Assembly: GCA_031310005.1 (NCBI GenBank) | Contig: CM062380.1 | Span: 3,348,001-3,412,000, forward strand | Origin: Dactylellina haptotyla | Lineage: Eukaryota > Ascomycota > Orbiliomycetes > Orbiliales > Orbiliaceae | DNA: 64,000 nt | Direction of reading: 5' to 3' | Shown: positions 14,399 through 55,225 of the stretch, piece by piece | Position numbering within the stretch: the first letter of the stretch is position 1 | Layout of the letters: every line of letters starts with the position of its first letter | Translations under genes and position numbers: made by a program | Notes under the pieces: generated by a model | What the model saw: the letters and a program-made list of their open reading frames with translations, nothing else | The model's database searches: none | What the model was told of the DNA's origin: nothing

Positions 14399-16536
14399 TC
14401 AAAGATGTGTTTCATAGTAGTCCAGACCAAACCCCAGCGCGGTACACTGCGGGCCTTCGGTGAAAGGGACCATCTTCGAATTCCACTGAAGCCACATGAG
14501 TTTTGGGTTTCTAATATTCACCTTCTCCCACTTCCCAGAGACTGTCATCTGATTTAAAGTATTATAATAACCCCTTGCATTCAGATAGCCCGTAGTTGGG
14601 TTTGGATCGTACCGCCAAACGAAGGAAGCCCAGCGGTCCACCGTGAGCTGCGAGAACGGAATATCCAATCCGTCGCGGTCAGCGAGGCCAGTTCTGGCTA
14701 AAAGGCCAAACACATAGTTCACCTCACCGACGTGGCATTTGTAGTACTCCTTGCTCGGATCACCTAATGGGAACTCAGGCGTACGAGGAGGGGAACAGAG
14801 CGCGCTTGTGAAACTGCCTGGGTTATATGTCCTGTTGAACTCAAACGCATATACTGAAGGGAGCGTGTGGTGTTTAAGCCCAGAATATGCGGTTGCTAAG
14901 GTCAGGCACTTCAATGCCCCGTCGGTTACAACCCGCACCGTCGTATTGAAAACCGCAGCTGCTAGATCCCCAGGAGGCAATGCGAAGGCTGGGCTATCGG
15001 CTGCTGCGGTTATATCGGTCTGTAGCAAACCCGAAACTACGCCGAGACTGGCTTTCAAGTCAGTCAATTGGAAGGCGGCTAGGGAATCTAAGGCGATTGC
15101 GAGTTCATCTCTGTTGGACCCAAGCATGGTCGGAACGCTGTTGACAAACCCTTTACCGGTTACTTGCAGCCCGCTTGACTCGAGATATTTGCCATCGATA
15201 ATTGGATAGTTAGCGATCTCGGTTCCTGGTAAGACAGTTAACGCTGTAGCATCCGTTGCTCGTAGACAGGCCGCTCGATCTGGTGCACTGGTGCAGTTAA
15301 CAGTCTCCAGAACAGGTACCCCAAAGACGGTAGTATGCTCTTGAATCGTTCTATATTCTGAATACCAGCGATTCGGGTAATAACCAGCTGGTTGCGATTC
15401 CATGATGGCACCGTGGAACAATCCCTTCGCGGTCTTCGAGGCCATCAGTGAGCGTACAGCTGCTGCGCCGGCCGATTCTCCCAAGATGGTCACTCTGGAT
15501 GGGTCGCCGCCAAAGGCTGTGATATACTTCTGGACCCATTGAAGACCGGTCACTTGATCTGAAAGCCCATAGTTACCAGTTATATCAGTTCCATCAATCG
15601 CGAGCCAACCGATGTTTCCGAGGCGGTAGTTTACTGCAACAACTACAGCGTCGCTGCGAGCTGCAAAGTTGCCGCTGTCAGCACCTGGGTCACTGATACT
15701 TCCGCCAGTGTTGCCGCCGCCGAATATCCAAAATAAGACCGGTTTAAGATCTTTTTTTACGATCTTCTTGCCGGGGAGATATGGGGTCCAGATATTTAAA
15801 AACAAACAGTCCTCGCTTCCGACTGCTTCAGAGCCAGCGGCTTGAAAGCACTGAGGTGGTTGATCGATTGCCATGTTATTTCCTTTACCATTATAAACCG
15901 AAGAGTATGTGAATCGTTTCGGTTGGGCAGAAAACCGGACACCAAGGAACCTCCAGCTATTCGCATCTCTATAGCCTGTTAGGGTTTGCTCTCCTACGGC
16001 TTTAGTAATGCGGAAACTCGGCGAGTTATCATCCAAAGTGAGGCTGCCAAGCGGGGCGCTCTGTGTACAGATAGCTGGGAGCCGTCGATGGCAATCTAGT
16101 TCTCTGGTCTTCCCTTTGATATCGATCGCTCGGCATTTCTTGTCCGATGATCCAATCCAGAATTGCTGGCTGGTTGGGAACTTTCTCAGATAGACTTGGT
16201 ATGATAACGTATTGTTCAGGCCGGCGGTGAAGCTTTCGGTTTCCTGAGACCAAAGGGACTCGCTAAGACTTTCGCAAATCCCTTGGGCTGATTTGAAGGA
16301 ATTTTCGCTTTCGACAAGAAGACCGCCCCCAGTCCTTGTGGTGTATTGACCTGAAATGAAATTTCGTATATTAGCTCTTGAGTAATGGTTCCTACCAAGG
16401 CCGGATCCTTACCATAGAGATCGTTATCCCTTAAGATGGTAAGGGCGCTATCCAGATCTTCTACAATTGGCACAGCTGAAACACCGAGTGCATTCGAGAA
16501 TGCGTAGAGTTGAAGAAATCTACTATATTTAACCAT
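14399..16536 (-). CDS. Secreted type-B carboxylesterase/lipase, paralogue 1
   Basis: Alpha/beta-hydrolase of the cholinesterase-like (Carboxylesterase_B) family; cleaves carboxylic esters or lipids outside the cell. Two exons, 691 aa: 16536-16413 and 16350-14399, intron 63 nt. Met at 16536 was chosen over 16611 because it directly precedes a signal peptide ending LGVSAVP, matching the paralogue. After the peptide comes a Cys-rich module with FWIG and a CRAI..LDC..LPAIC pattern, resembling a C-type-lectin-like fold end. The catalytic domain has FGGGN oxyanion residues, EDCLFLN, nucleophile elbow GESAG (Ser about 334), acid loop LGSNRDE, and histidine motif CHVGEVNYVFG. All key residues are present. 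A second gene of identical predicted length lies at 20.3-22.5 kb. Substrate unknown. Confidence 0.92.
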
Positions 16537-20340: not shown

Positions 20341-22517
20341 TTAATGAGTTTCATAATAGTCAAATGGTATACCAATCGCCTGGCACTGCTCGCTTTCGCT
20401 CAAAGGAACATTTTCACCATTCCACTGCAACTTCCTCATTGTCGGGGCTTGGTAATCTATTGCCTGCCAGGCAGCGTTCCGTTCGACTTGATTTATGGTA
20501 TTCCAATAATTTCTAGCTCTCAGGTAGGCGGGATCTGGGGTAGGATCCTGCCACCACGCGAAAGCCGCCCAGTAATCTACTAAGAGCTGCTGATACGGAA
20601 TATCGTTCTCGTCGCGCGGCTCCTCGCCTCCGTATAGCAAGAATCCCAGGCTTGTGTCCAACTCCCCTGAATGACATTTGAAGTATTCCTGGTCGGGATC
20701 TCCGAGAGGATGCCCTGGGCTGATTGGCGCATTGCATTCATCCACCGTATAGTATATCGTTTGATATGTTCTATTGAACTCGTACACGTATACGGCGGGT
20801 AGAGTATTATGTTTCGAAGCTGAGTACGCAGTCGCCCAGGCACCGCATTTGAAAAAGCCATCAGTGAGTAGCCTTTGGGTCACGTTGAAGGCCCCTAAGG
20901 CACCTGGCGGTATCGGGAAAGCTGGGTCGCCCTCAAACATAGTCATGTCGATATCATTGCCCTCTAAGCTAGGATGATATCGTGTTGTGGCGAATTCTAG
21001 ATAATCGTGCACAGATGATGTGTCACCCGTGAAGCCCTGTTGCGACAAGTCGATCGCCCACTCGTCCCGATTAGTTCCGATGATGACAGGAACATGCGCA
21101 ATATGTCCACCACCCGTCACCGGGAGATCACTTTGAGACAGAACGTGATTGTCGACAACAGGGTAACTATTGATGGTTAGAGCGATCCTGCAAATATACA
21201 CGTTGGGGATATTCTTACTGTGCTACGGTAGAAAGTAAATTTATAGTGTTCGCATTGATGGTCTTGATACAAGAAACCGGGTCCGGAGCGGTGTCGCAAC
21301 CGGACTCTTGTAAAATATTTTGACCGGAATATGCAGTCGCCTCTTCTATAGTTGCGTATGAAGCGAACTTATTTTCAGGATTCCATCCGATAGCCATGCT
21401 TTGCATCACAGCGGCTCTGAACAATCCATCGGCCAACTCGCTAGCGATGAGTGCCCTAACAGCATCGGCTCCTGCAGAGTCGCCTGATATAGTAATTTTT
21501 GTAAGATCACCTCCAAAAGCTGCGATATTGTTGCGGACCCACTGGAGCGCTGTAACCATATCTCCAAGGCCATAATTCCCTGTGATCGTTGTGTTTGCTA
21601 CTGCTAGAAACCCAAAGGTTCCCAACCGATAGTTTATTTTGACAACCACAACATCGCCTCTCATCGCAAGAGGCACTCCGTCATAATTTCCTAGGTTGCC
21701 ATTGTTGACAACAAACGATCCACCGTGAATGAAGAAAAGAACAGGCTTAAGATTGGTTTTCCCTTCTCCGGGCAGGTATGGTGTTGCAACGTTAAGAAAT
21801 AAGCAGTCCTCGCTTCCATAACCGGGCTGGATACAAGATTCACCAAACTCGAGAGCGGTAGCAGCACCAGAGCCGTCTCGCACAATGGAATGATGAAATC
21901 TCTGTGGAATTTCAGCGTAGCGAACTCCGTCAAATCTCCACCCATATGAGTCTCTAAATCCAGTTAGAAGCTGGTTCTCGACCGGGACCTTGATTTGGTA
22001 TGGGGCAGAGTTGTCTTTGTATGTTACGTTGCTGAGCACTCCAGAATGCGTGCAGAGCGTTGGCAGCTTCCGGCCGCAATTGCAATGTTGGATATTGCCT
22101 GCGACCCCGATAGCTCTACATCCACCGTTGACGTCTTTTGCAACCCAAAAGAGCTGTGTTGGTGCGAATTTACCAAGATACACTTGATAAGCGAGGCTGC
22201 TGTTGACGCCCGCATTGAATTGCTGGGTATCGGGTGACCATAACATCTCCGTAAGAGAGTTGCATGCCTTTTGAGCTCTATGAAATTTATGGGCCGATTC
22301 TACAAGGATGGCCGAGGAGGTTCTGGTCGAATATTGAGCTTTAGGTAGTTAGTTTATATTACTAAAAGCTTGATAGAGGGAGAGTACCCCAGAAATCTAC
22401 TTCTCTTAAGATCGTTAACGGTGTATTCAAAGAAGAAAGTACGGGCACAGCTTGTACTCTCAGCGTTTGAGAAAGAGCGCACGAGATTGCCACCCATAAG
22501 GGAAGATAGGAAATCAT
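20341..22517 (-). CDS. Secreted type-B carboxylesterase/lipase, paralogue 2
   Basis: Cholinesterase-like alpha/beta-hydrolase, paralogous to the gene at 14.4-16.5 kb and with the same predicted length (691 aa). Three exons: 22517-22388, 22338-21219, 21166-20341. The first intron occupies the same place as in paralogue 1; the second (21218-21167, 52 nt, CTAAC branch, AATAG acceptor) is absent there. Signal peptide after Met 22517, then the Cys-rich lectin-like module (CRAI..CNC..LPTLC). The catalytic domain has FFIHGGS oxyanion loop, EDCLFLN, nucleophile elbow GDSAG (Ser about 331), acid loop IGTNRDE and histidine motif CHSGELD. The elbow differs from paralogue 1 (GDSAG versus GESAG). All triad residues are present, so it should be active. 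Substrate unknown. Confidence 0.91.
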
Positions 22518-24318: not shown

Positions 24319-25263
24319 ATGTCAAATGACCTTTTCCCGGCCTTCGCTTCGGAACATATCCAACTAAGCAATATTCTTTCCGACAAAGCTGGCCCTGCGA
24401 TATTCGTTCGGTCTCGAGTTGACAGAGACAAACCGCCACTTCTGTTACTCCACGGCTATCCCCAAACTTATGTTGAATTTCACAAAATCGTCCCAAGGCT
24501 TCTGCCCCATTTCAGTCTCTTCCTCCTTGATCTCCGCGGCTATGGCGCATCATCGACGGTCATGAGTGAGAATGGCTCGGGTTATTCCAAACGATTGATG
24601 GCACAGGATTGTGTTTCCGTGATGAGGCGGTACGGGTATGAAAAGTTTAGTATTCTCGGGCACGATCGAGGTGCCGGAGTAGCTTACCGTCTAGCATTAG
24701 ACATGCCGGAGAAAGTTGACAAGCTTATTATTGTCGATATAATCCCTACATACTCTCGATACATTGGATTTGCGGATCGCGATTCTGTGTTGCGAGGCTT
24801 CCACTGGCCGTTCATGGCGCAAGCCGAACCGTTCCCAGAAACGATAATTAAAGGCGCTGGTGGCGGGAAGTTCTTTCTTGAGCATATACTAACGTCATGG
24901 AGCGGTACCCATTCGCTTGAAGTCTTCGATCCAACGCCACTGGAGAATTATCGGGAAGCATTTTGCAATGATGAGAGAATTCATTCAACGTGCGAAGACT
25001 ACAGGGCTGGTGCATTTCATGATCGAGCCCATGATGAGGACGACTTAAAGAATGGAAATAAAATTGGTGCCCAGACCCTAATAGTTTGGGGCCAGAAGGG
25101 CCGTGTGGCTGGACCGTCTGCGAAAACGCCTTTGGATGTGTGGCGGGACTTTGCTGAGGATGTCAGAGGTGTGGGATTAGAATGCGGTCATTTTATCCCT
25201 GAAGAGGACCCAGATGGGCTAGTGGATGCGGTAATGAACTTCTTTGGTATCAAGGGGCAATAG
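24319..25263 (+). CDS. Alpha/beta-hydrolase, fluoroacetate dehalogenase/epoxide hydrolase-like
   Basis: Intronless, 314 aa, the family's usual length. Haloacetate dehalogenases cleave the carbon-halogen bond by an Asp nucleophile and hydrolyse the ester with a His. Visible motifs: HGYPQ oxyanion segment (45-49), DLRGYG (71-76), nucleophile motif GHDRGAG with Asp116, IVDIIPTY after it, an HW pair (162-163) in the cap region as in halide-binding dehalogenases, and a terminal CGHFIPEE histidine. In bacterial fluoroacetate dehalogenase a second arginine three residues after the first helps bind the carboxylate; here that place is Gly (DRGAG), so the substrate may differ. There is no signal peptide, so it is probably cytosolic. 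It is convergent with the HET-S-like gene, 333 bp apart. The lack of introns and bacterial-type family could reflect old transfer, which I cannot test. Confidence 0.88.
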   Translation: MSNDLFPAFASEHIQLSNILSDKAGPAIFVRSRVDRDKPPLLLLHGYPQTYVEFHKIVPRLLPHFSLFLLDLRGYGASSTVMSENGSGYSKRLMAQDCVSVMRRYGYEKFSILGHDRGAGVAYRLALDMPEKVDKLIIVDIIPTYSRYIGFADRDSVLRGFHWPFMAQAEPFPETIIKGAGGGKFFLEHILTSWSGTHSLEVFDPTPLENYREAFCNDERIHSTCEDYRAGAFHDRAHDEDDLKNGNKIGAQTLIVWGQKGRVAGPSAKTPLDVWRDFAEDVRGVGLECGHFIPEEDPDGLVDAVMNFFGIKGQ

Positions 25264-25596: not shown

Positions 25597-26466
25597 TTAT
25601 CGGTAGTATCTATAATTAGTGGCAACTGGGGATCCGAAAAAGCCATAGCCCCCATAAGTATTTCCAAATTGGACGAATGCCTCTCCGCTGACGGTGTTAT
25701 TGTGATAAATATTACCCCTGCTCCCGCCCTGGTTTGTGAAACCGTTTAGGTACTCATCGCCGAGTTTCACACACGCTTTTCCGCTAATTTCGTTCCCGGT
25801 ATATACATGTGTTGGGGTCTGGAGCCTCATTTCAAGTCTCGAGCGGAGCGCCTCATCTGTATTGGCTGTAGCATTTACGACTAACTCCGCGGGGATGTTG
25901 TTCTGCACAATCAGCAGATCTAAATCTTCCTCGCATAAGGACTCTTGTTTTTCGGCTAGTGTCGGCGCGGGAAACAATTCCACCAGTCCATCGACGAGCT
26001 TTGTCACGTCGTCCAGCAGCTTGTTGAATCTTTCTTTGTCGTACACTGCCCAAACGGTCTTACGGAAAGTTCTAGTGTTCTTCTGCCTTTGAGAAACAAC
26101 TTTTTTAACAGTGGAAACCAATTTTCTGATGTCCCGGCCCGTCCCGTCGATCGGGTCGTAGAGTGCGGGGCTACCTTCATATTTCAGAGACAGCTCTCGA
26201 GCCCCTTCAAAGAGTTGCCTGATCTGCTCCAGAGTCCTGAGGGCAATTTCCCCATCCTTAACTGTAGCTAGATCTTGCTCTTGCTCTTGGATGGTTGCCG
26301 CCCATCTGGACAGCCGCAGTCTCACAATGCTCAGCTTTGTCACTGCGATTTCGTAGTCCTGACCAAAGGACTTGCCGAAATGGACGCATTCACAGAGACC
26401 AATCACTGCGGAAAACATGGTTGCAAGGCTTACGCCACCAATTATAAGACCAATGACTTCCGCCAT
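25597..26466 (-). CDS. HET-S-like HeLo-domain protein with two C-terminal amyloid (HRAM) repeats
   Basis: Intronless, 289 aa, the same length as Podospora HET-S. Residues 1 to about 220 form a HeLo domain: hydrophobic N-terminus (IGLIIGGVSLATMFSAVIGL), CVHFGKSFGQDYE, LRLSRWA, and the VSQRQKNTRTFRKTVWAVYD block, all aligning by eye to HET-S. The C-terminus has two imperfect copies of the HET-s-related amyloid motif (about 221-243 and 253-276), the second ending FGNTYGGYGFFG. In the known system the amyloid C-terminus templates a beta-solenoid, the HeLo domain refolds and inserts into membranes, and the cell dies; usually an NLR with a matching motif triggers it. Residue 33, where Podospora alleles differ (His/Pro), is Ser. 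No NLR gene is visible nearby. Death activity is inferred from the family. Confidence 0.93.
   Translation of the reverse strand: MAEVIGLIIGGVSLATMFSAVIGLCECVHFGKSFGQDYEIAVTKLSIVRLRLSRWAATIQEQEQDLATVKDGEIALRTLEQIRQLFEGARELSLKYEGSPALYDPIDGTGRDIRKLVSTVKKVVSQRQKNTRTFRKTVWAVYDKERFNKLLDDVTKLVDGLVELFPAPTLAEKQESLCEEDLDLLIVQNNIPAELVVNATANTDEALRSRLEMRLQTPTHVYTGNEISGKACVKLGDEYLNGFTNQGGSRGNIYHNNTVSGEAFVQFGNTYGGYGFFGSPVATNYRYYR
25639..25806 (-). repeat. Two HRAM amyloid pseudo-repeats within the HET-S-like gene
   Basis: Repeat 1 is encoded at 25806-25738 (core NEISGKACVKLGDEY) and repeat 2 at 25710-25639 (core NTVSGEAFVQFGNTY). The period is 32 residues, against about 36 in HET-s. The shared pattern N-x-[VI]-SG-x-A-x-V-x-[LF]-G-[DN]-x-Y is the HET-s-related amyloid signature. 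A Gly/Asn-rich linker separates them. Confidence 0.9.
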
Positions 26467-28408
26467 ATCGCTTGTTGTCTCATATACGAGACAAATACTA
26501 GTGATCGTCGAAATTAGTAATTTCTTCTAAAGTCTGAGGGTCTTGTGCATTGACATTTAGAGGTTCCATGAAACCAACTTACTTGGCTTACAGACTGAAA
26601 TTGGTTGATTTCGCGATATTTCCCTAGATAATCTTCTATTCCACCAATTGTTGTTATTGCATGTTGTCGCTGCGTCGCTAACTTGATAGATCGATATTAT
26701 TGAAAGTTTATTCGTCTGAAGGTTAACTATCGAAAGCCTAGAAGTGGGACAACGGAGGAACGGGCGCTACTTTATAATACATTTACAGGTATCTATCTCT
26801 AAAAGGCGTCTGAAAGAGTGCTGGGGAGACATCATGCATGGAGTCGGAGAAGAACGACACAGCCCCCGGTCATTCAAACTGTCCGCAGCTTTCTTGCAGA
26901 TACGGTATACTAAGGGGAAGGTAATCCGATTGGTGATTTTTAAGCATCTCTCTAGAATATACAAATGCGGATGCCGTTGGGAACTTTTGTCAAACGTGGG
27001 AATTAGTTAAGTTGCGCAATTATCACACGGCTGGTAGCATGATCAGAACTAGCAACAATGAAACAAGAATTCACACAATTCGAACCTGATCCTCATGCTC
27101 AAGACGGAGAGCAAATGGTAACACTAGATCGCACAGTCGAACAGGAGTGCCCAAAGTGGAACCGAGGCGTTTTCCGATCAGGTGGAGGATCTCATTGGAG
27201 CGATAGGGTATGCCCTGGGGACCATGGGGCAATAAATAGAGACCTTCCTTGCCCTGGCTTCAAATGTAGCATGCTTATCACCAGGCTCTGCGTTGTGTGC
27301 TGGTTTGCATTGCACCTACATGTGCATGATGCACGGGCAAAAACCAGTCCCGTCTTGCCAGCACCCAGCCTCAGCGGCGTTCCTCGACGTGTCAATAAGC
27401 CGTTAAAAGCTACCGACATCCCTTGATCAAGCACCGTACGGAAAGGTTCGGAGTTCTGGTGGAATTTCGCGTACCCTGCGCACCAAAATTACGTGGGAAT
27501 ACTCAGGCCAACTGGGCTTGGCGACACCCACAACTTCCACAGAAGCATCGCCCTGATTCTGTTTCACAGCCTTGCATTAGAACAGGAGACGAACCAAGAT
27601 GAGACGAAGTGCTGATGTCTCGGTGATGAGAGAAAAGTCTATATATCACCAACTGCGCCTGTGATGCTTCATCGATTTATAATTGTATGGGATCGATATT
27701 TACTTGTGTATCTCCGTTAGTAAGTCAGATTCAACTCCAGAGCCGATAGCATGTTAAGCTGACCTTCAAGAACGGTATTCATTTAGTCGTATGTGCAGGC
27801 AAAAAGTTTGAAAGTAGAGTACTTGTTTGAATTCCTGATATTATCGACAGGGTTGGATTCCCACCCACCCAACTCTCTACTATCTGCAGCTAGTCATCTG
27901 GATGCGAACTTTTAAAAGCTGCGTCGAAAGAAAAACGCGAGAACGAGATCGGTACCTTATTCTCCTGGTAATGAGGCTGCCACATTCCAAGTACTATTGC
28001 GAATAGAAGTGGAACCGAGCATACCCTTAGCCAACCAACAGTCGTCTTTGAATTTCAAAGGTTTCCAGAGCTCATAGTGCGTCTCCTTCTCTCTTTTTTT
28101 TTTTCGTTGAGCGATTCTAACCCGAAGATTATAGATTGACGTACAGCAAATCATGCGTCAGTTTCCTACGAACACCTGGCTCCGTTCTGGCTCTCGAGAT
28201 GTAGAAAATTGGCGTGGCGAAGAGTTGGTGGTAGATGCTTGAGATTTAAGGCAGCTGAATTCCTTGGTTCCTAGTCCTAGATATACCGCATCGAAACCAC
28301 CAAAAGTCGGTTGCTTTTGATATAAATCTGAAGGTTACTCTCCTCAAACCTCTTAACCTCTCATAAATTTCAATTATCCCCTTCAATTGCTATTACGGAA
28401 TATATAAT
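26467..28408. other. Long intergenic region upstream of the HET-S-like gene
   Basis: About 1.9 kb between divergent genes. It must hold the HET-S-like promoter (minus) and that of the next gene, where a TATA-like tataaat lies at 28321-28327, 82 bp before the ATG. A 122-codon frame at 27058-27426 is open but its composition is not protein-like and a competing antisense frame overlaps it; I do not call it. No NLR fragment (P-loop, NACHT or WD repeats) is seen. Confidence 0.4.
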
Positions 28409-29745
28409 ATGCGACAGTTCCCCAGCATGCAGTATCCAGATAAACCAGTTTTCGCGGGACCAGGACGGCGTCTAGCTGACGGAACCAGCAGCAAATCTGC
28501 CTCGTCTAGCTTCGAGACTAACGAGACAAATAAACCAATGGCAGCACCTTTTAGCCAGGCAGATAGCCCAACTGACGGCAATGTACCACCTCAAAATTTG
28601 TATCAAAGTTGCTATGCGGCTGGTCATGCGCGGCTTGGGCATACCTATGGCGGGCTTACACTGAATTTCGAGCAATACCGGGATGCACCACAAGATGTGC
28701 CCCCGAATGTAGTGGAACTCTTGAAATCTGTGCCATCCGCTGTCGATGCAAACGCTCCGGGGAGACCTCGGATTCCGAGGCCGGCGGTGTCTACCCCATC
28801 AGGGGCGAGCCCTCCGAGTTCGTATTCGCAGAGTACGACACGTCCAAGGCAGGTGCCTCAGCCGGCGGTGGCGATGGCCTCCAGCGACTTGAACTTGACA
28901 CCGCCGGGTGCACAACCTCAAATGATGCCCCAGACTAAGATGGTACCTGGAAACATCACACCTCCGGATATGTCGCCTCCATCTAACCTCTCCGGCGGGG
29001 GAGGTAAGTGTTGATCGTTGTTTATATCTACCCAGGATAGGGCCAATCGTGCTAATGCTTCATCTGTGCTATAGGGTATCTAACAAATATGTTCAAGAAG
29101 CTCGCCAATGTAAAGAAAGAGGACTATACGATTGATGAACTCAAGGCCCTTCAAGCCACTTATAATTCTGAATTGCTTCAGGAAGCACAATCGCAGGTGC
29201 GCAAGATCCAGGAGTGGAAGGATTTGGCGTCGCGCCTAGAAAGGGTTGAGGGAAACAGAGAAATGAGCCGCACCAATCAATGGTATCTGGAGTGGCACAG
29301 GTGCGTGGCCGGAGTCTACCACCTCACTGGTCGTGCCTACTTGGCGAAAGGTTTCAGCGAAGATGAGACTTGGGCTGAGAATTGGGCAACGGCTTTGGAA
29401 AAATTGGAGCTGGCCTCTGACAAAATGGAACGAGCTGTTCAATACATCGATGACCCGGAAGGAAAGGATCGGCCCGAGCCGCTGCGTGTTTTTATTTTGA
29501 TCCACCGGGCTATGGTTGGTGTCGCCGAACTGTGGAAGCTGAAAGAAGGCGATGCCCAAGCCGTTCTTGAAGCTCGTAATAGGTGCCCCATTGTAGCAGA
29601 GTCAGTTAAAACCACGCAGACCAGAATTCAAGAGCTGCTCGAGCTTTATCCGAAGCTGGGTCCCCATCCTATCTTCGAGCAGTTTACGCCTGTGAAAGAG
29701 GGGTATGAGGGAGTGAGGGACTTCCTCTGGCGGGGATGCGAATAA
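28409..29745 (+). CDS. Uncharacterised protein: Pro-rich N-terminus, TPR-like helical C-terminus
   Basis: Two exons, 421 aa: 28409-29003 and 29075-29745, intron 71 nt with CTAAT branch. Residues 1 to about 200 are disordered, rich in Pro, Ser, Thr and Gln, with many PP and TPP motifs. The C-terminal half is strongly helical and charged: a Lys/Glu-rich coiled-coil-like start (KKEDYTIDELKALQATYNSE) followed by helix pairs with a TPR-like look (YHLTGRAYLAKGF, ATALEKLELASDKMERAVQY). No signal peptide, membrane segment or catalytic motif. The neighbouring gene at 30.1-31.1 kb has a similar layout and may be a distant paralogue. Family not recognised. A TATA-like element lies 82 bp upstream. Confidence 0.75.
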
Positions 29746-30113: not shown

Positions 30114-31082
30114 ATGGGCGATGCAGGAACGGGCCGGCCGCAGCCAACACGCCGTCCCACACAGACGGGAGCTCGACTCCCCAAATACGACCCCAACGCC
30201 ATCACCATTCCGTACGGGCCTCCCTTCACCATACAAAACAACTATCTGATCTCCGGCTGCCTTGTACACAGACCTGGCAGTCCCGATCAGATGAGTCGGG
30301 CGCATGCCCGTCTGGAGCCACAGCAATCGAGAGACGAACGGTATACACAAGCCCCTCTGCCAGCCACAGACACACCAACGCCACCTACTCGGGCCAATCC
30401 TCCACACAATAACTCGACGACAGACCCCGCTGCCCATACAGTGCCCTCCGCCTATTTGGAGTATCATGGCATCCGCGATGAGCTGGATACTCACCTTGAA
30501 AGGGCGTCCCAATTTTTCTACGATCACAAATCACCAGAAGTAATGATTGGCCAATTTGACGCGATACTTCGCTACGTCCAAAAGTCCATTAGAATGAGAG
30601 AAAAAGCTGGATGCGCAGATTCGGATCCCTATATCCTCAACCTACTCTATTATTTCGAAGCAGATCTTTACTATAGCCGAGCGAAGGCGTACTATATTAT
30701 AGCTTGCAAGAACCATATGAGCCCCGATTCCCAGGATTGCCTTCTCGAAGCAATTGAAAGCACAACTGAGGCGCGAAACGCCTACAACAAGCTCTCCACT
30801 AACGATCGTATATACGGTGTATGTGTGAAGAGGAGACACCGCAAAATTCGCGAAATTCTTAAAGATATCGATAAGAAAATGAACGGCCAAACAAGGTTTT
30901 CTCCCCAGTTTCTTCAAGCTCAATATACCGGAACATCTGCTGTCACCAAAGAACCAGAGATGGTCTCCGTGATTGCAGCTCAGGAGCGGCCTTTCGGTCT
31001 TTTCCGCGCTCTAGTATCATGTGGCATCCTCCTCTCTATCTCACTTTATATCGGAATCCCCCAGAACATCTTATTTGGCTGA
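30114..31082 (+). CDS. Uncharacterised protein: Pro-rich N-terminus, helical domain, C-terminal membrane anchor
   Basis: Intronless, 322 aa. Residues 1 to about 110 are disordered (Pro, Gln, Thr, Arg). Residues 115-270 are helical: DELDTHLERASQFFYD, LRYVQKSIRMREKAG, LLYYFEADLYYSRAKAYYII, IESTTEARNAYNKLS, resembling TPR-type helix pairs. A single hydrophobic segment at the very end (FGLFRALVSCGILLSISLYI) suggests a tail-anchored membrane protein facing the cytosol. The middle region has the same order of helices as the protein encoded just upstream (Y..L....A.LYY..AKAYY versus YHLTGRAYLAKGF), so the two could be diverged paralogues. ATG 30114 starts the longest frame that fits; an earlier ATG at 30000 is out of frame. 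Function unknown. Confidence 0.72.
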   Translation: MGDAGTGRPQPTRRPTQTGARLPKYDPNAITIPYGPPFTIQNNYLISGCLVHRPGSPDQMSRAHARLEPQQSRDERYTQAPLPATDTPTPPTRANPPHNNSTTDPAAHTVPSAYLEYHGIRDELDTHLERASQFFYDHKSPEVMIGQFDAILRYVQKSIRMREKAGCADSDPYILNLLYYFEADLYYSRAKAYYIIACKNHMSPDSQDCLLEAIESTTEARNAYNKLSTNDRIYGVCVKRRHRKIREILKDIDKKMNGQTRFSPQFLQAQYTGTSAVTKEPEMVSVIAAQERPFGLFRALVSCGILLSISLYIGIPQNILFG

Positions 31083-48034: not shown

Positions 48035-48695
48035 GGACATATCTGAATGATTATATGCCTTAAAATGTTGCATCTTAACGCTTGCTAAAAGAGGACTTTG
48101 TACGAGTATAATATTTGTTTTTGGATACGGGATAGCATGGCGATAATGGAAGGATGTTTTAGTGTTTATTGGAGCACCGAGAATACCATATCTTGATTAC
48201 TTTACCTATTCCACTCGCTGGTCAGATCGAGATGAGTGAATGAGCCATCTGGCATTCGGTCGATAGCATAGCAAACAGTATATCTGGGTGTTTTAAATTT
48301 AACTTGAAACTGAAACGCAGGACCAAGATACAAATTTTTAGTGTTTGACCTTATCCGCAGTTACGTATCGAGTTGGTTGTGCTAAGCGCTGTACTCTCGT
48401 TGTTGGTTGCAGAGGGCACCAAATTGTAACTAGCTTACAGTAGCAATGATATGCTATGTAGCTACCAAATAGACTATGGATAAATTTTCAGGTTCGCAAA
48501 GCCTCTATAGAGCTAGATTGTATTTAAGTAGCCTGGGCGTGACTTGAAAGTGACAGTGTTCAAATACGGTTAACTCAAGTAGATGAAGACAGCATCGATC
48601 ACCGAATATCTTACTCTGTCTTCTCTAAACCTTAAGCTTGGGGGGACTTTCAAAATTATTCTCTTATCCAAATTATATGCTGATCTCAAGCAAAT
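48035..48695. other. Intergenic spacer
   Basis: AT-rich DNA between PPT1 and the first subtilisin-like protease gene, holding the latter's promoter. No gene seen. Confidence 0.4.
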
Positions 48696-50883
48696 ATGAA
48701 TAAACTCATTCTGAGTTCGCTATTGGCTTTAACAATCTTATCACTTACAGAACGGGTTCTCGGATTGAGGGCCAAACCTGGACCTGGGCCAGTCGACCAA
48801 TCGCAGCATATCGGTGGAAACGTTCGGCTTTGGTGGTTCGTGTTAGAGCGAGACCGCTGGGAAGATGAAGACCTTAAGGGAAAGCTTCTACAAGCGCTAC
48901 AGGATACCAATTGCGGTTTGAATGGCATATCTGGCGATGGCATATTTGTTCCTACGAGTATTGTTGGAACACCTTTTATGACCATCAAAACCAGCATTCC
49001 GGGTTGTAATGAATTGCATCTTTCACCTATATACCTGAAATTTCAAGATGAAGTAAGTCTGGCTGTCCGTTTCCTATTCAAAAATTTTATATCGATGACC
49101 CAAAATACTAAATACCGCCCAGTTAGCGGGCTGGGGCGAGGTACCCTACAGCACACAAGTTAAACGTATCCAAGAACACATCAATCCGAAGAAACCTAGT
49201 CTCTTCAAGCCTCCAAATTTCAAACCACAACGGAAGGATAACATCGCGTCTGATAATAAGGACCAGCCACGCCGCCAAAACAGGACTCGAACACGGAGAG
49301 CATATCGTCCATCTGAATGGGGCGGCAGACTTGAAAGCAACTTGGTAACGAGGGCAACAAGTGCGACAGATGCCGATAGTGTAAGAGCGGTTTGGGATTT
49401 ATTCCGGGAAATGAGAGTGATATCCGTGCCTAATGGCATGAAGCTCACGGATTTGGGTCATGTGTATTACACCGGAGCTTTCGAGAGTGGAGTTGGTACA
49501 ACAATATACTTGGTCGATACAGGTGCGAACTTAGATCATATGGTAATTCTCAGCTCTGATATACTCCCTCAACGGCGCGTTACGTATATATTTTACTTGC
49601 TAACTATATTGATCTAAGGACCTTGAGCGTGCTCAGTCGCCTAAGGCTTATTTATTTGCTGGCCCGGTGGGTTATATTCCTTGCACATAAATCAAATTAG
49701 TGGTCATCAAAATTGCGATTACGGTACTGGGAAGGTATCTAGCTTGGTATAAAATGCAACTGTACGAGACTGACAATCGCGTATATCTTTCCATTGAAAA
49801 TTCAGGATCCAGCTTCCGATCGAGCAGACTGGGCAGCATGTGGCTACCATGGAACTAAAGTATTAAGTAGGATTATCGGCCACAGAGTCGGTCTTGCGGT
49901 TGATGCGAACTATATTGTTGTGAAATTCGTCAACGAATGGGGATATTACACTACCGCGCATCTCTTCCACGCAATGCTCTTGACGTACGACGACATTAGA
50001 CGACAACAAGTCCCAAACGCCATCATTGTTTGTGCGTGGTTGTACGATCACACACAGCCGGATAATCCGGATTCGCTATTCCAAAACGTCTACGATCCGC
50101 CTAACTCAAAGCGCAGGACGAATGTTCTGGTCAACTGGCTCTCTGAACAAATGACGAAACTGATATGGGAGTTGAGGAACCATATCAAAAAAGCTCCAGT
50201 TTTGGTCACCGTTCCTGGTAACGAAAAAATTATAAATGTGAGTATGAGTGCCTCTCAAATTCAATTGCACGATGAACATACAAGTATTTGCGCATCGTAG
50301 TATCTAGATGATAGGTCTCGCCTAATGCAAAGCCCAAAATTCAGCCGCTAATTTGCTAATCAATTTGAAACAACTTTTCCAATTTGTGGTGTTGTAGAAT
50401 CCAACGGAGTACCTCCCGCCGGCGAGAGACATGAATAACTACCGAGAAGTTGTAATAATTGCAGGCGGCACGACTATGAAAGACCAGAGAATGTTTGACG
50501 ATAGCAAACGGTTTCGAATAAAAGCATGGGCGCCAGGAGAGAACGTCCACGCAGCAGGATACAACGAGAAAGGAGAACAGATAATTGATACCGTTTCAGG
50601 ATCTTCGTTTGGTAGGTCGCTTCCCCTTCTCTAGGTCCTCCATTGTTGGAGAAAACATAAAAATTGCAGGGTATTGGGTGATTATTTTCTCATTAACGCA
50701 TATATAGCGGCGGCACATGTTGCAGCCATGTTGGCCAGATACGTTTCGGAGGATGATGCAGAGGACGTTCGAGAAGCTCGCGATTATTTGTACGATCATG
50801 CACACGAGCGGGTTCCTGGGGGGCCTAAAATTATGTGGAATTTGATACCTAAGAGCCTCTGGCCAAAGCCAGGCAGCTCCTAG
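48696..50883 (+). CDS. Secreted subtilisin-like serine protease (S8), gene 1
   Basis: Six-exon model, 548 aa: 48696-49052, 49123-49542, 49619-49666, 49806-50237, 50398-50611, 50708-50883. Signal peptide at 1-23. The propeptide region is followed by a basic linker (QNRTRTRRAYRPS). The catalytic triad is complete only after splicing: Asp251 in YLVDTGANLDH, His290 in GYHGTKVLSRIIG, Ser489 in SGSSFAAAHVAAM (canonical GTSMAAPHVAG), plus the oxyanion Asn in VPGNE. The Ser motif is interrupted by an intron. The GTS-to-GSS change and other deviations mark a divergent family member. The protein ends soon after the catalytic domain, without the extension of its neighbour. Exon 3 (48 nt) is the least certain. 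Tandem with gene 2, same strand. Confidence 0.85.
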
Positions 50884-51530
50884 CTGAGTCTGAGCACTAG
50901 CAGTAGTAGAAGTGTCCTTCCTATTCAAGATTATTCGATGCAATGGTATAATAGGGCCATATTAGATATAAGTTAACTCTGGAAAGGGTTATTATGGTTA
51001 AAAATCGCTAAGCTGCACCTTAAAAGCAATTAGAATGGATTTGCCTTAGGCCTTAAGACGAAACGGAAGATGTACCCATGAGCAAACGTATGTGTATTTG
51101 AAACCATCACACCAATTTAAAATCTCGACTGGATTCAGTTATAACTTTGTTGTGAGTATCATCTAAAGCTCTTTAGGAAGCGCTTCGATTCTTGTTAAAC
51201 CCCAGAACTTGCAGTGTTATTTCTAAATTTGTCTGTTTGTTAGAACGTGCACATTCCTAGTCACCTCGATCATGAGAGAACCTGATGTTGGATTGTCTTA
51301 TCATATTTGAGTAACAGAAGGGAATGAGGACAAAATATTCTATGATCATGATTTGAATGTGTCGAAATTTAGATGTCCAGCTGTATTTATCTCATTAAGG
51401 TAGCAAAGCGAATGGTTGGTTATTTATTCCCCAATTACTTTCTTGTAATAAAATCCATCTAAGTGCTGCTGGTCACACTCCAAGGATTCTGGCGTGTTAA
51501 GACTATACTAAGCCCCGATTCTTACCCTCG
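50884..51530. other. Spacer between the two protease genes
   Basis: AT-rich; promoter of the second protease. No coding frame or repeat recognised. Confidence 0.4.
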
Positions 51531-54500
51531 ATGGCTGCGATTGTCGGCCTATTTTCTAAACTTCTAATTTTCTTCCTCCTGTGGCATCCAACTCCAGCTT
51601 TTGGTATTCTGCCAGAAATCGGGGACGACCTAAATCTAGATGGACCTGTAACATGGCTCATCCGGATCAAGGTTACAGAATGGCACAGAAAGGACATTAT
51701 AGATATTCTCTGGAAAGAAGTACAGACTACCGCCTCTCAATATCGCGGGTATGAACGACATCTTTACAGGTCTGAAAGTAAATATCTCGGAACCGCATTT
51801 ATATTATTTCCGGGAACACAGCGACATGCGAGTATTATTCGATCACGTTATTCAAATGTGGTATGTTGCGAGAGCTGTCGGGTTTATTAATAATCGGCAC
51901 ATTTCAGTAGTAGTCTATCTAGGCGATGGCTACCTCCTCAAATCAGGGTTTCTTCTAACAACATTATATGTGTAGGTTGACAGAGTAAACGATTTTGTCG
52001 CACAAGAATCCCCCTGGGACGTTTCCGACCGGCTCCGGCATGGTAGCCAGACTACTCAAGGTATGGATATAACCTTCGATGATGACCCAATTTTACAAGA
52101 CGTTGGTACGCCAAAACATAAACCGAGAGGAAATGTCGATAGGGACACGGGGTCAGGTATTTTTGACAAGAATATAACCTCGGCCGCATCGGATCGATTT
52201 CATGCTAAGAGGAAGTTGACATGGCCGCCATTTGCACCGAGTTCACACGACCAAGCACGCGTAGTGTCAACACCGGAAATAGAGTGGTCCTTGAAAAAAT
52301 ATACTTGGAGAGTCTGGGAAAGCGACGATACCTGGGGCGTCGGGACGACGATTTATGTAGTTGATTCCGGTTGGAATATAGGGCATAGGGTGAATTTGGA
52401 TCCCTCCAGAGCGAGTTTACGAAGTTTGAGTACTAAGACATTTTAATAGGAATTCGATCATCTAAAACAGGCCCAGAAAAATAATTGGATATGGTAAGAT
52501 CGCGCATCTGCATAAAATATATACATTGCAATTATATTGTAGATAAGATTATTTTTTTACCAAAATACACTAATCGCTAAACTGAGCTTTGAACACATAG
52601 GACTGGCCCGTACAGAGAGACGCACGCGCACCAGTTCAAAGATGAGGGGGGCCACGGAACTGGAGTATGGACGCAAATAGTCGGTGCATCCACCGGTCTA
52701 GCCAGAAGAGCAACTCTTAAAATGGTACAAAACATTCACACCGATTTTGACGAGCTCGTTGCGGATAGCCATATCGATGGGTATCTCCGCATGTACGACG
52801 ATATAGTCGACACGGGCAATAAAAACCCCGTTATCATCAATGATTCGCATGTTTTCCCAACAGGGAAATTCGCAACCCCGTGGGTAGCGGATCGGTCTAG
52901 AGGACGGGTAAGCAGTATGCGGAAAGTGGTGGTCGAGTTTAAGAAGCTGGGGAATGTAATTCTTGTTGCTCCGGCTGGTAATCAGGAACCGGTAAGTATC
53001 AACGAACAATTATTTTATTCTTTTCTTATTTTATTTTATTTCATTTCATCAACTTTGAGGATATAGCCACACAGACCACTAACTATTTCATTCATTTACT
53101 ATGGACAGTTCAAATTAATTGCTATCCGGCCTTATTTGCCACCGAACCCGAGACCGCGGACGTAGTGATAGCCGTTGGGGGAGTGAATAGTGTCACTTTC
53201 GAAAATGAATATCAGACGGCACCGTGGTTAAAAATCTGGGCACCCGCGACCAACATTGAGGTACCGGCAGGGACAACCTATTTCCGAACTTTGCGAACGT
53301 CGGGAACGTCCTTAGGTAACTTCTCCAATTCTATCAGCTGGTCAAACACATATATTTGGCTAACGTGAAAGGTGCTACGTGTAGCTTCCCCCCAAGTTGC
53401 GGGTATGCTTGCATATTACTGTGGGATGGGTATGACAATTCCACAGGCGAAAGAGATACTGTACGATTATGCCTATCCTCGATTCGACCGTACACTTGGG
53501 CACAATGCGTTGAATGGCCCGGAGCCTAAAGTTATCTATAACGGGGCGTTCGGGATAGGCTGCGGCGAGGATGTTCTTGAAACTCCGAAGGATTGGAATT
53601 CCTTTTTTAGGAGGCGGCGCAACAAAAATCAGATTGCCCCTGGGCAGCAGTCTAGAAGTTCGACTCAGGTATGCACTTTATCTTCAAGTGTCAGTTCAAC
53701 TTCTTCGACCGTGTCAAGTACTCAGACTTCCTTATCTTCGTCTATCATCTCCACGAGTACGGAGTTGACTACAAACACTGGCGTAGGATCCACCTCTTTG
53801 GAAGCAATTAGTTCTTCGCAGCAATTAGTCACTACTATGACAGGGGGAGAAGCTACATCTGTGAGTGGAGGGTTTTCGATCTCCAACACGTTTGACGAGG
53901 GCGGTGAAACCGTTCCAGGTGGAGGCGCTACTCCGGACCCGACACCAGACCCGCCACCACAAGAACCTCCACCTGAGGTAGAAGAGCCTATAGAAGTAGA
54001 AATTCCAGTTGTTCCACCTGGAATCGTGCCAGTGGTACCCTGGATCCCTGTGGGGTTTGTAGTCGCAGGTCAAGCAGCAGCCATCATCGCTATCGCATTG
54101 TTACTAAAGGATGGCACGACGGCTACAGTTACTGCTACTTTACCGACAGTATCGCCGGGGCAGACCGTAAAGTTATCAGACCTGGTGCCTCAGAGCATAC
54201 ATACATTAGCGGCTGAACCCACTCCTGCTGCAGCGCCGACAGTAATGCCCACTGGGAGCGTAAAATTATCATTGTCGCCCGTAGCAAAAACGACGATAGT
54301 ATCACCGTCAATAACAACCGCACTCTCAAGTACAAGACACATTAGCTCGGTGGTGGCTACTGCGATCCCAGTACCCAGCGATGCTAATATGTGTCACGAT
54401 CTCCTGGTTTTCGGTCGTGATCAGTATAATAGATTTAAGCCAGTATATAGATACGTGGATAAGAATTTCGTGGCAGAAGGGATAAAGCAACTCTGTCTGA

Positions 54501-55225
54501 AACACACCGGCATTCAGAACAAAACAATGTACCATGGGTGGAATCTTGCCTGGTATCACGGCACTCCGCAGCACTTCGAACTCAATATAATCTGGCAGAA
54601 TAGATACCCAACAGATCAAGAGTGCGTGAGCGGGTTCATAAAGCTATTGGATGAATGCCAGGATACCCGCTGGAATGTCACCGCTGGCGGAAAAAGACAA
54701 GAGAACGGATTCATATTCGATATCGCACCGCTATACCCGGCTAGACAGCCGCCTCACGAGAAATATGTAACATGTTATATTCGGCGTAGGTATTTTGATT
54801 TCCACAATTGGGTTGAAGGGTACGAGCATGTGATATGGGGGTACGGATTTCTAGACCGACATGACGTCGATCAAGAGCCGAATGGGAACGTGGATTTCTG
54901 GGTGGATATGACCGCGTGCAGGCTGTTATATCTAGATTGGGAGTTTGTGAATGGCCCGAAGGGCGCAGAGACACCGTGGGAGTGGAGGGTACAGATATGG
55001 ACGAGACCTGATATGGATAATCATGATTGTGTGAGAAATGTCGTGAGGAAGTGGAGCGGGTTTAAGGATTTTAGCTGTGGAAATATTGACTATGAGAAAG
55101 ATATGGGGGTGGCATATCCTCCTGGGGCGGAACGGTTGAAGTACGGGCCCACCTTTAACGGGACATATCAACTTAAGAAGCCGCGTAGAATCGCGAACCG
55201 CTATAGCGATCGCCTTAGAATCTGA
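51531..55225 (+). CDS. Secreted subtilisin-like serine protease (S8), gene 2, with long chimeric C-terminus
   Basis: Six-exon model, 1086 aa: 51531-51860, 51976-52389, 52450-52493, 52601-52991, 53075-53315, 53385-55225. Signal peptide (LLIFFLLWHPTPAFG). Triad: Asp240 in YVVDSGWNIGH, His281 in GGHGTGVWTQIVG, Ser472 in TSGTSLASPQVAGM; oxyanion Asn in APAGNQE. After the protease come a Ser/Thr-rich region, a Pro/acidic stretch (TPDPTPDPPPQEPPPEVEE), one hydrophobic segment (VAGQAAAIIAIALLL), another Thr/Pro-rich linker and a 250-residue Cys/Trp/Tyr-rich domain (CHDLLVF..WNVTAGG..FDIAPLYP) resembling the C-terminal domains of some secreted fungal proteins. The acceptor of exon 5 is problematic (see findings). 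It could be membrane-bound on the cell surface. Confidence 0.8.

Follow-up and report, generated by a model that had tools for sequence, protein, structure and literature searches.

The HET-S-like gene and its neighbourhood

The window, by which we mean the whole analysed stretch of 64,000 nucleotides of Dactylellina haptotyla DNA, carries on its minus strand a gene for a HET-S-like protein and, divergent from it, a predicted two-exon gene (exons A and B, together AB) followed by an open reading frame, C. The features are as follows.

25597-26466, minus: HET-S-like protein, 289 aa, single exon (open frame; HeLo match; own-frame codon score top of six)
25918-26451, minus: HeLo domain, residues 6-183 (PF14479; HET-S/HET-s structures)
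26399-26457, minus: N-terminal hydrophobic stretch, about residues 4-22 (19-residue hydropathy 2.26)
25729-25809, minus: repeat r1, residues 220-246 (internal repeat)
25633-25713, minus: repeat r2, residues 252-278 (internal repeat)
26467-28408, no strand: intergenic stretch between the divergent HET-S gene and AB
28409-29003, plus: predicted exon A, with unconserved start, r2-like motif and Pro/Ser-rich linker (C7 homologue at E 1.7e-7; no Pfam match)
28595-28654, plus: candidate r0 at residues 63-82 of A, resembling r2 (fourth of 1451 ORFs; p 1/4001 against its own r2)
29004-29074, plus: predicted phase-1 intron of AB, GTAAGT ... GCTAAT ... TATAG
29075-29745, plus: predicted exon B, a helical domain matching no known family (genome matches at the three HET-S loci; low-confidence all-helical model)
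30114-31082, plus: ORF C from its first in-frame ATG, with a hydrophobic C-terminal segment of hydropathy 1.87 (C7 homologue at E 1.8e-16)

The HET-S-like protein is encoded by an open frame of 289 residues from the ATG, within a stop-to-stop frame of 309 residues. Its residues 6-183 match the HeLo family PF14479 with an E-value of 5.9e-35 and 121.4 bits (cut-off 23.2), and the PDB sequences matching it at E<=0.001 are 2wvn, 2wvo and 2wvq, all HET-S/HET-s HeLo structures (E 3.8e-24 to 5.2e-22). A profile search of the PDB with the whole protein returned the same kind of result, three HeLo structures with the remaining matches weak and starting at E 0.11. The preliminary description, made by a model from the sequence alone, had proposed a single-exon HET-S homologue that retains a HeLo core block and a GNTYGG end and has Ser at residue 33, and each of these points is upheld, with RQKNTRTFRKTVWAVYD found at residues 127-143 and GNTYGG at 268-273. 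From residue 4 onwards the N-terminus has a hydropathy of 2.26 in the window protein and of 2.38 and 2.21 in its two paralogs, as judged from a hydropathy scale rather than a transmembrane predictor.

Three HET-S-like genes in one genome

Searching the genome (39.8 Mb in 11 contigs) for HeLo domains gave eight match rows, three of which are HET-S-like genes, in the window and at C7:311963 and C3:3266965 (hereafter the C7 and C3 paralogs), the other five falling in three other places. Identity to the window protein is 68% and 55% for the two paralogs, each of which has two repeats in one open frame. Used as genome queries, the tail and the HeLo half each recovered the three HET-S genes and no others.

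Two further HeLo-containing loci were observed. At C2:440839-442040, HeLo matches and an NB-ARC match adjoin each other on one strand and may belong to a HeLo-NB-ARC NLR. At C1:18555-19248 and beyond, a HeLo match continues into an open frame that by eye is protein-kinase-like, an MLKL-like arrangement.

Whether the gene encodes a killer or a prion had been left open in the preliminary description, and the question can now be narrowed. In Podospora anserina, HET-s alleles carry D23/P33 and HET-S alleles A23/H33 (PMC3531502), and for other fungal homologues position 33 has been used to predict the HET-S type (PMC3321046). Residues 23/33 are G/S in the window protein, N/T in the C7 paralog and G/S in the C3 paralog, so that all three carry neither pair. 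An executioner appears likelier than a prion from these residues because the prion-type D23/P33 is absent. The match to HET-S is nonetheless incomplete: A23/H33 is also absent, and the residue aligned with HET-S Glu86, where the E86K change abolishes killing (PMC3531502), is Gln81 here and His and Arg in the paralogs, which counts against a killer acting exactly like HET-S.

The C-terminal repeats as putative diverged HRAM

Repeats r1 and r2 start at residues 220 and 252, an offset of 32, and constitute the top 20-residue self-match of the whole protein, equalled in none of 2000 shuffles; the same holds in both paralogs. By the published HRAM numbering (PMC4518210), the six repeats of the three proteins all conform at positions 3, 5, 10, 16, 18, 19 and 20 (position 3 polar; 5, 10, 16 and 18 hydrophobic; 19 Gly; 20 Asp or Asn). 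Every one of the six, however, has Asn in place of a hydrophobic residue at core position 8, and none has K/R at position 15. The loop between r1 and r2 has 11 residues by the same numbering, compared with 6-18 residues in 154 of 155 published HRAM pairs (PMC4518210), and an aromatic, diglycine-containing end lies downstream of r2. The two repeats that the preliminary description called intact and amyloid are both there at a spacing of 32 residues, and they are intact for the most part, the departures being the Asn at position 8 and the lack of K/R at 15.

The Pfam model PF11558, which recognizes just 38 of the 155 published HRAM pairs (PMC4518210), gave no match to the whole HET-S-like protein (E<=1) and none genome-wide (E<=10), where the control genomes were without a match too. 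Scanned alone, after the whole protein had failed, the tail gave PF11558 as the sole Pfam family listed, with E 0.041 and 14.3 bits, under the cut-off of 32.2; among the paralogs, the C7 tail gave E 0.073, also below the cut-off, and the C3 tail gave no match. The HMM search proposed earlier as a check accordingly divided, with HeLo above its cut-off and HRAM beneath it. PF17108 as a genome probe produced one match (E 0.59), below cut-off. Based on the repeat pattern and the sub-threshold PF11558 match, we take the repeats as diverged HRAM, possibly of a new subfamily.

A structure prediction of the repeat pair had also been suggested, and AlphaFold2 run on the single HET-S-like sequence, without an alignment, returned a mean pLDDT of 41.0 and about 30 over the tail, values too low to show a beta-solenoid. 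In the profile search of the PDB, a likeness of the repeats to chimallin (two sequences, E 0.33) was taken as chance.

A conserved divergent neighbourhood

The paralogs, the neighbours AB and C, and the absence of an adjacent NLR did not feature in the preliminary description and are found here in addition. At all three loci A, B and C lie in the same order and divergent from HET-S, the gap between HET-S and AB measuring 1.9 kb in the window and, at C7 and C3, about 2.0 and 2.6 kb, respectively. Searched against the 39.8-Mb genome, window B matched in three places, which are the three HET-S loci (C7 with E 5.1e-15 and 33% identity, C3 with E 1.25 and 20%), and C3 B as the query found itself and window B alone (E 0.74); none of 300 shuffles aligned as well as window B with C3 B. 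The association of B with HET-S is well supported. For window A, the genome search gave the C7 counterpart at E 1.7e-7 plus one weak match elsewhere (E 0.30), and for window C, besides itself, C7 alone (E 1.8e-16). At C3, A is at chance level against window A (equalled in 221 of 300 shuffles; in 33 of 300 against C7 A) and C does better (1 and 9 of 300 against the window and C7 counterparts, respectively), A and C at this locus having been assigned chiefly by position.

Pfam searches with A, B, C and their C7 and C3 counterparts returned nothing near a cut-off, with PF11558 and PF17108 not matching A, and a PDB profile search with B returned none at E<=10. The model of B is all-helical at a pLDDT of 46.9, which is low confidence. 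By codon usage, HET-S, A, B and C each score highest in their own frame of six.

A and B probably form one gene, to judge from the predicted intron and the reading frames. Phase-1 intron candidates are also present at C7, with the less canonical donor GTGATA, and at C3, with GTATGT (placed by hand), and the joined AB frames of 421 (window), 409 (C7) and 354 (C3) aa are free of internal stops. We regard the join as likely and not proven, since a canonical in-phase intron joins 5 of 40 neighbouring window ORF pairs, AB included, and looser donors join 11 of 40. We discarded splicing of B to C because, by eye, the stop that closes B is similarly placed in all three copies. A relationship between B and C was likewise dropped at an hhalign probability of 0.1, though 4 of 300 shuffles were as good as window B against C7 C. 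The N-terminus of window C also resembled the repeats on inspection, and the test of this likeness gave p 0.25.

Elsewhere in the window, an alpha/beta hydrolase gene (24319-25263, plus; Abhydrolase_1 E 1.7e-22) is convergent with HET-S on its downstream side; the C7 and C3 stretches did not contain a match for it. At 14399-16408 and 20341-22348 (both minus) lie ORF groups that are alike and carboxylesterase-like, with what looks by eye like a lectin-like N-terminal stretch, and split ORFs at 48684-55225 (plus) on inspection resemble a pair of subtilisin-like genes with a long extension at the C-terminus.

A candidate r0 motif in exon A

Window A contains at residues 63-82 a stretch resembling r2, which was noticed by eye before testing. 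With a score matrix built from the three r2 repeats and applied to 1451 ORFs of at least 60 aa in the examined DNA, window A ranks fourth, immediately behind the three HET-S genes, and was equalled by 6 of 50,000 shuffles with 18 columns and 1 of 50,000 with 12 columns, values that are uncorrected for multiple testing. C7 A ranks sixth with 12 columns, behind one unrelated ORF (170 of 50,000 shuffles), and with 18 columns lies outside the top 25 (2061 of 50,000). C3 A is not significant in this ungapped test (19,891 and 31,235 of 50,000 shuffles with 12 and 18 columns). In a separate comparison of five motif versions with nine proteins, two B entries among the B and C controls reached p<0.05, each with one motif version. 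When gaps were allowed (18 comparisons under two gap settings, p values again uncorrected), A against its own r2 gave p 0.0002 in the window, 0.0047 at C7 and 0.039 at C3 with default gaps, and 0.0002, 0.0035 and 0.024 with the second setting, compared with 0.35-0.49 by default, and 0.21-0.49 over both settings, against its own r1. C3 A aligned best with C7 r2 (p 0.0002) and also with window r1 (p 0.017 and 0.0037). The candidate single copy of the effector motif in the neighbour is strong in window A, moderate at C7 and weak at C3.

In length the motif falls short of r2 by one or two residues, and the match between window A and C7 A begins at residue 65, within the motif. An HMM of the six repeats did not report A at E<=20. 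Similarity to r2 in preference to r1 is published for the r0 of HRAM1 and HRAM4, that of HRAM2 being nearer r1 (PMC4518210). In position the candidate differs from NLR-side HRAMs, most of which are at residues 5-9 (PMC9815663). C7 A, alone of the three A proteins, also has by eye a GxQxGxN, the core of the PP pattern (PMC9815663).

NLR genes in the genome

Among the matches listed at E<=0.01 for the NLR families NPHP3_N, NACHT and NB-ARC, none falls in the window or in the 13.5 kb surrounding each paralog (C7:305500-319000 and C3:3260500-3274000). The nearest of those listed, C7:282839-283399, is about 28.5 kb from the C7 HET-S gene. At the same threshold the genome as a whole holds at least 128 NPHP3_N, 56 NACHT and 20 NB-ARC match rows; some of the NPHP3_N rows contain internal stops. 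Among published HRAM genes an NLR adjoins 98 of 155, leaving 57 without one (PMC4518210), and the text consulted of that paper does not describe the neighbours of these 57.

A possible NLR-independent trigger of HET-S

We propose that AB replaces an NLR as the amyloid trigger of HET-S, the executioner with a HeLo domain and a two-rung tail in a cassette present three times, and put the probability of this reading slightly under one half (about 0.48). The HET-S gene would encode a cell-death executioner whose HeLo domain, with its hydrophobic N-terminal helix, is governed by the two-rung amyloid tail r1-r2, and the divergent AB of each cassette would join a helical domain to a flexible N-terminal arm bearing one r2-like motif. 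Clustering of AB by a signal, perhaps with C, would let the motifs fold into an amyloid rung, and either B or C might bind the signal. The rung of AB would then template r1-r2 of HET-S, after which HeLo would release the N-terminal helix to enter the membrane, killing the cell. AB would in this way stand in for an NLR like NWD2 while having no nucleotide-binding domain. Such a domain is not strictly needed, because NWD2(1-30)-GFP, which has no NACHT, nucleates the prion fold (PMC4344463). The wider claim, a receptor-less amyloid death pathway built on a small two-exon AB whose disordered arm bears an r2-like motif and which has a new helical domain and no nucleotide-binding oligomerisation domain (NOD), in a divergent cassette with HET-S and C found three times in one genome, we advance more tentatively.

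Alternatively, an unlinked NLR with a diverged N-terminal r0 may trigger HET-S, and AB and C may have another role. The large NLR set of this genome would offer many candidates, non-adjacent partners are suspected in print, with a shortest NLR-HeLo distance of 95 kb in Sphaerobolus (PMC9815663), and the published adjacency of 98 in 155 leaves room for such cases. However, the six-repeat HMM, run over the examined DNA including 60 NLR loci (45 distinct stretches), found the HET-S genes alone, with all others at E>=1.7; the best NLR-locus ORF scores 19.7 with the r2 matrix, against 30.0 for window A; and the genome-wide tail query reached the three HET-S genes only. We consider an unlinked NLR unlikely.

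A different role for the cassette would be that AB and C restrain HET-S in the manner of immunity proteins, or regulate it, with the r2-like stretch capping the tail or being a coincidence. Linkage and divergent orientation at three loci would suit a restrainer as well, as would the weak motif at C3 and the much greater change in B (20-33% identity) than in HET-S (55-68%). Against this, a single r2-like copy on a divergent neighbour is the known layout of activators (PMC3321046, PMC4518210), and we give restraint or regulation a small chance. That the three loci merely reflect segmental duplication, with AB and C as passengers functionally unconnected to HET-S, would explain the shared order but is very improbable, given that the C7 and C3 stretches match the remaining ORFs at 18-42 kb of the window, beyond HET-S (with its antisense frames), B and C, in one place only, over 19 residues (E 0.005), and that B has diverged to 20% identity while its linkage is retained.

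Read as an AB-triggered executioner, the cassette resembles several known systems without coinciding with any of them. HET-S/NWD2 of P. anserina (HRAM1) likewise has a HeLo domain with a hydrophobic N-terminal helix and two C-terminal repeats, whereas the neighbour here is a new helical protein without a NACHT or WD match, its motif is at 63-82, and core position 8 is Asn. In HELLF/FNT1 of the same species an executioner with two strongly diverged HRAM repeats also adjoins its partner gene (PMC7889193), but the HELLF domain is HeLo-like and FNT1 is an NLR. HRAM subfamilies 1-5 (PMC4518210) share G19, hydrophobic residues at 5, 10, 16 and 18, polar residues at 3 and 20, a loop of 11 and an aromatic Gly-rich end, and differ from the present repeats at positions 8 and 15. 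The PP/RHIM and sigma motifs are also short, Gly-rich amyloid signalling motifs, and the GxQxGxN of C7 A recalls them; it occurs in one of three A proteins, and A has no Pfam match. In the excerpts of the open-licence PMC literature consulted, which describes NLR-effector pairs (PMC9815663, PMC7889193, PMC12881547, PMC12261475, PMC10197012), we found no HET-S partner other than an NLR.

Accounts of HET-S amyloid signalling present it as an exchange in which an NLR addresses an executioner. Should a NOD-less protein supply the seeding motif, the NLR would be one possible trigger among others, and the minimal requirement would become the motif plus anything that clusters it, which is testable. 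The cassette would then be a natural case of nucleation without a NACHT domain, as has been shown in P. anserina for the isolated NLR motif (PMC4344463), and three diverged cassettes in one genome offer ready pairs for tests of seeding specificity.
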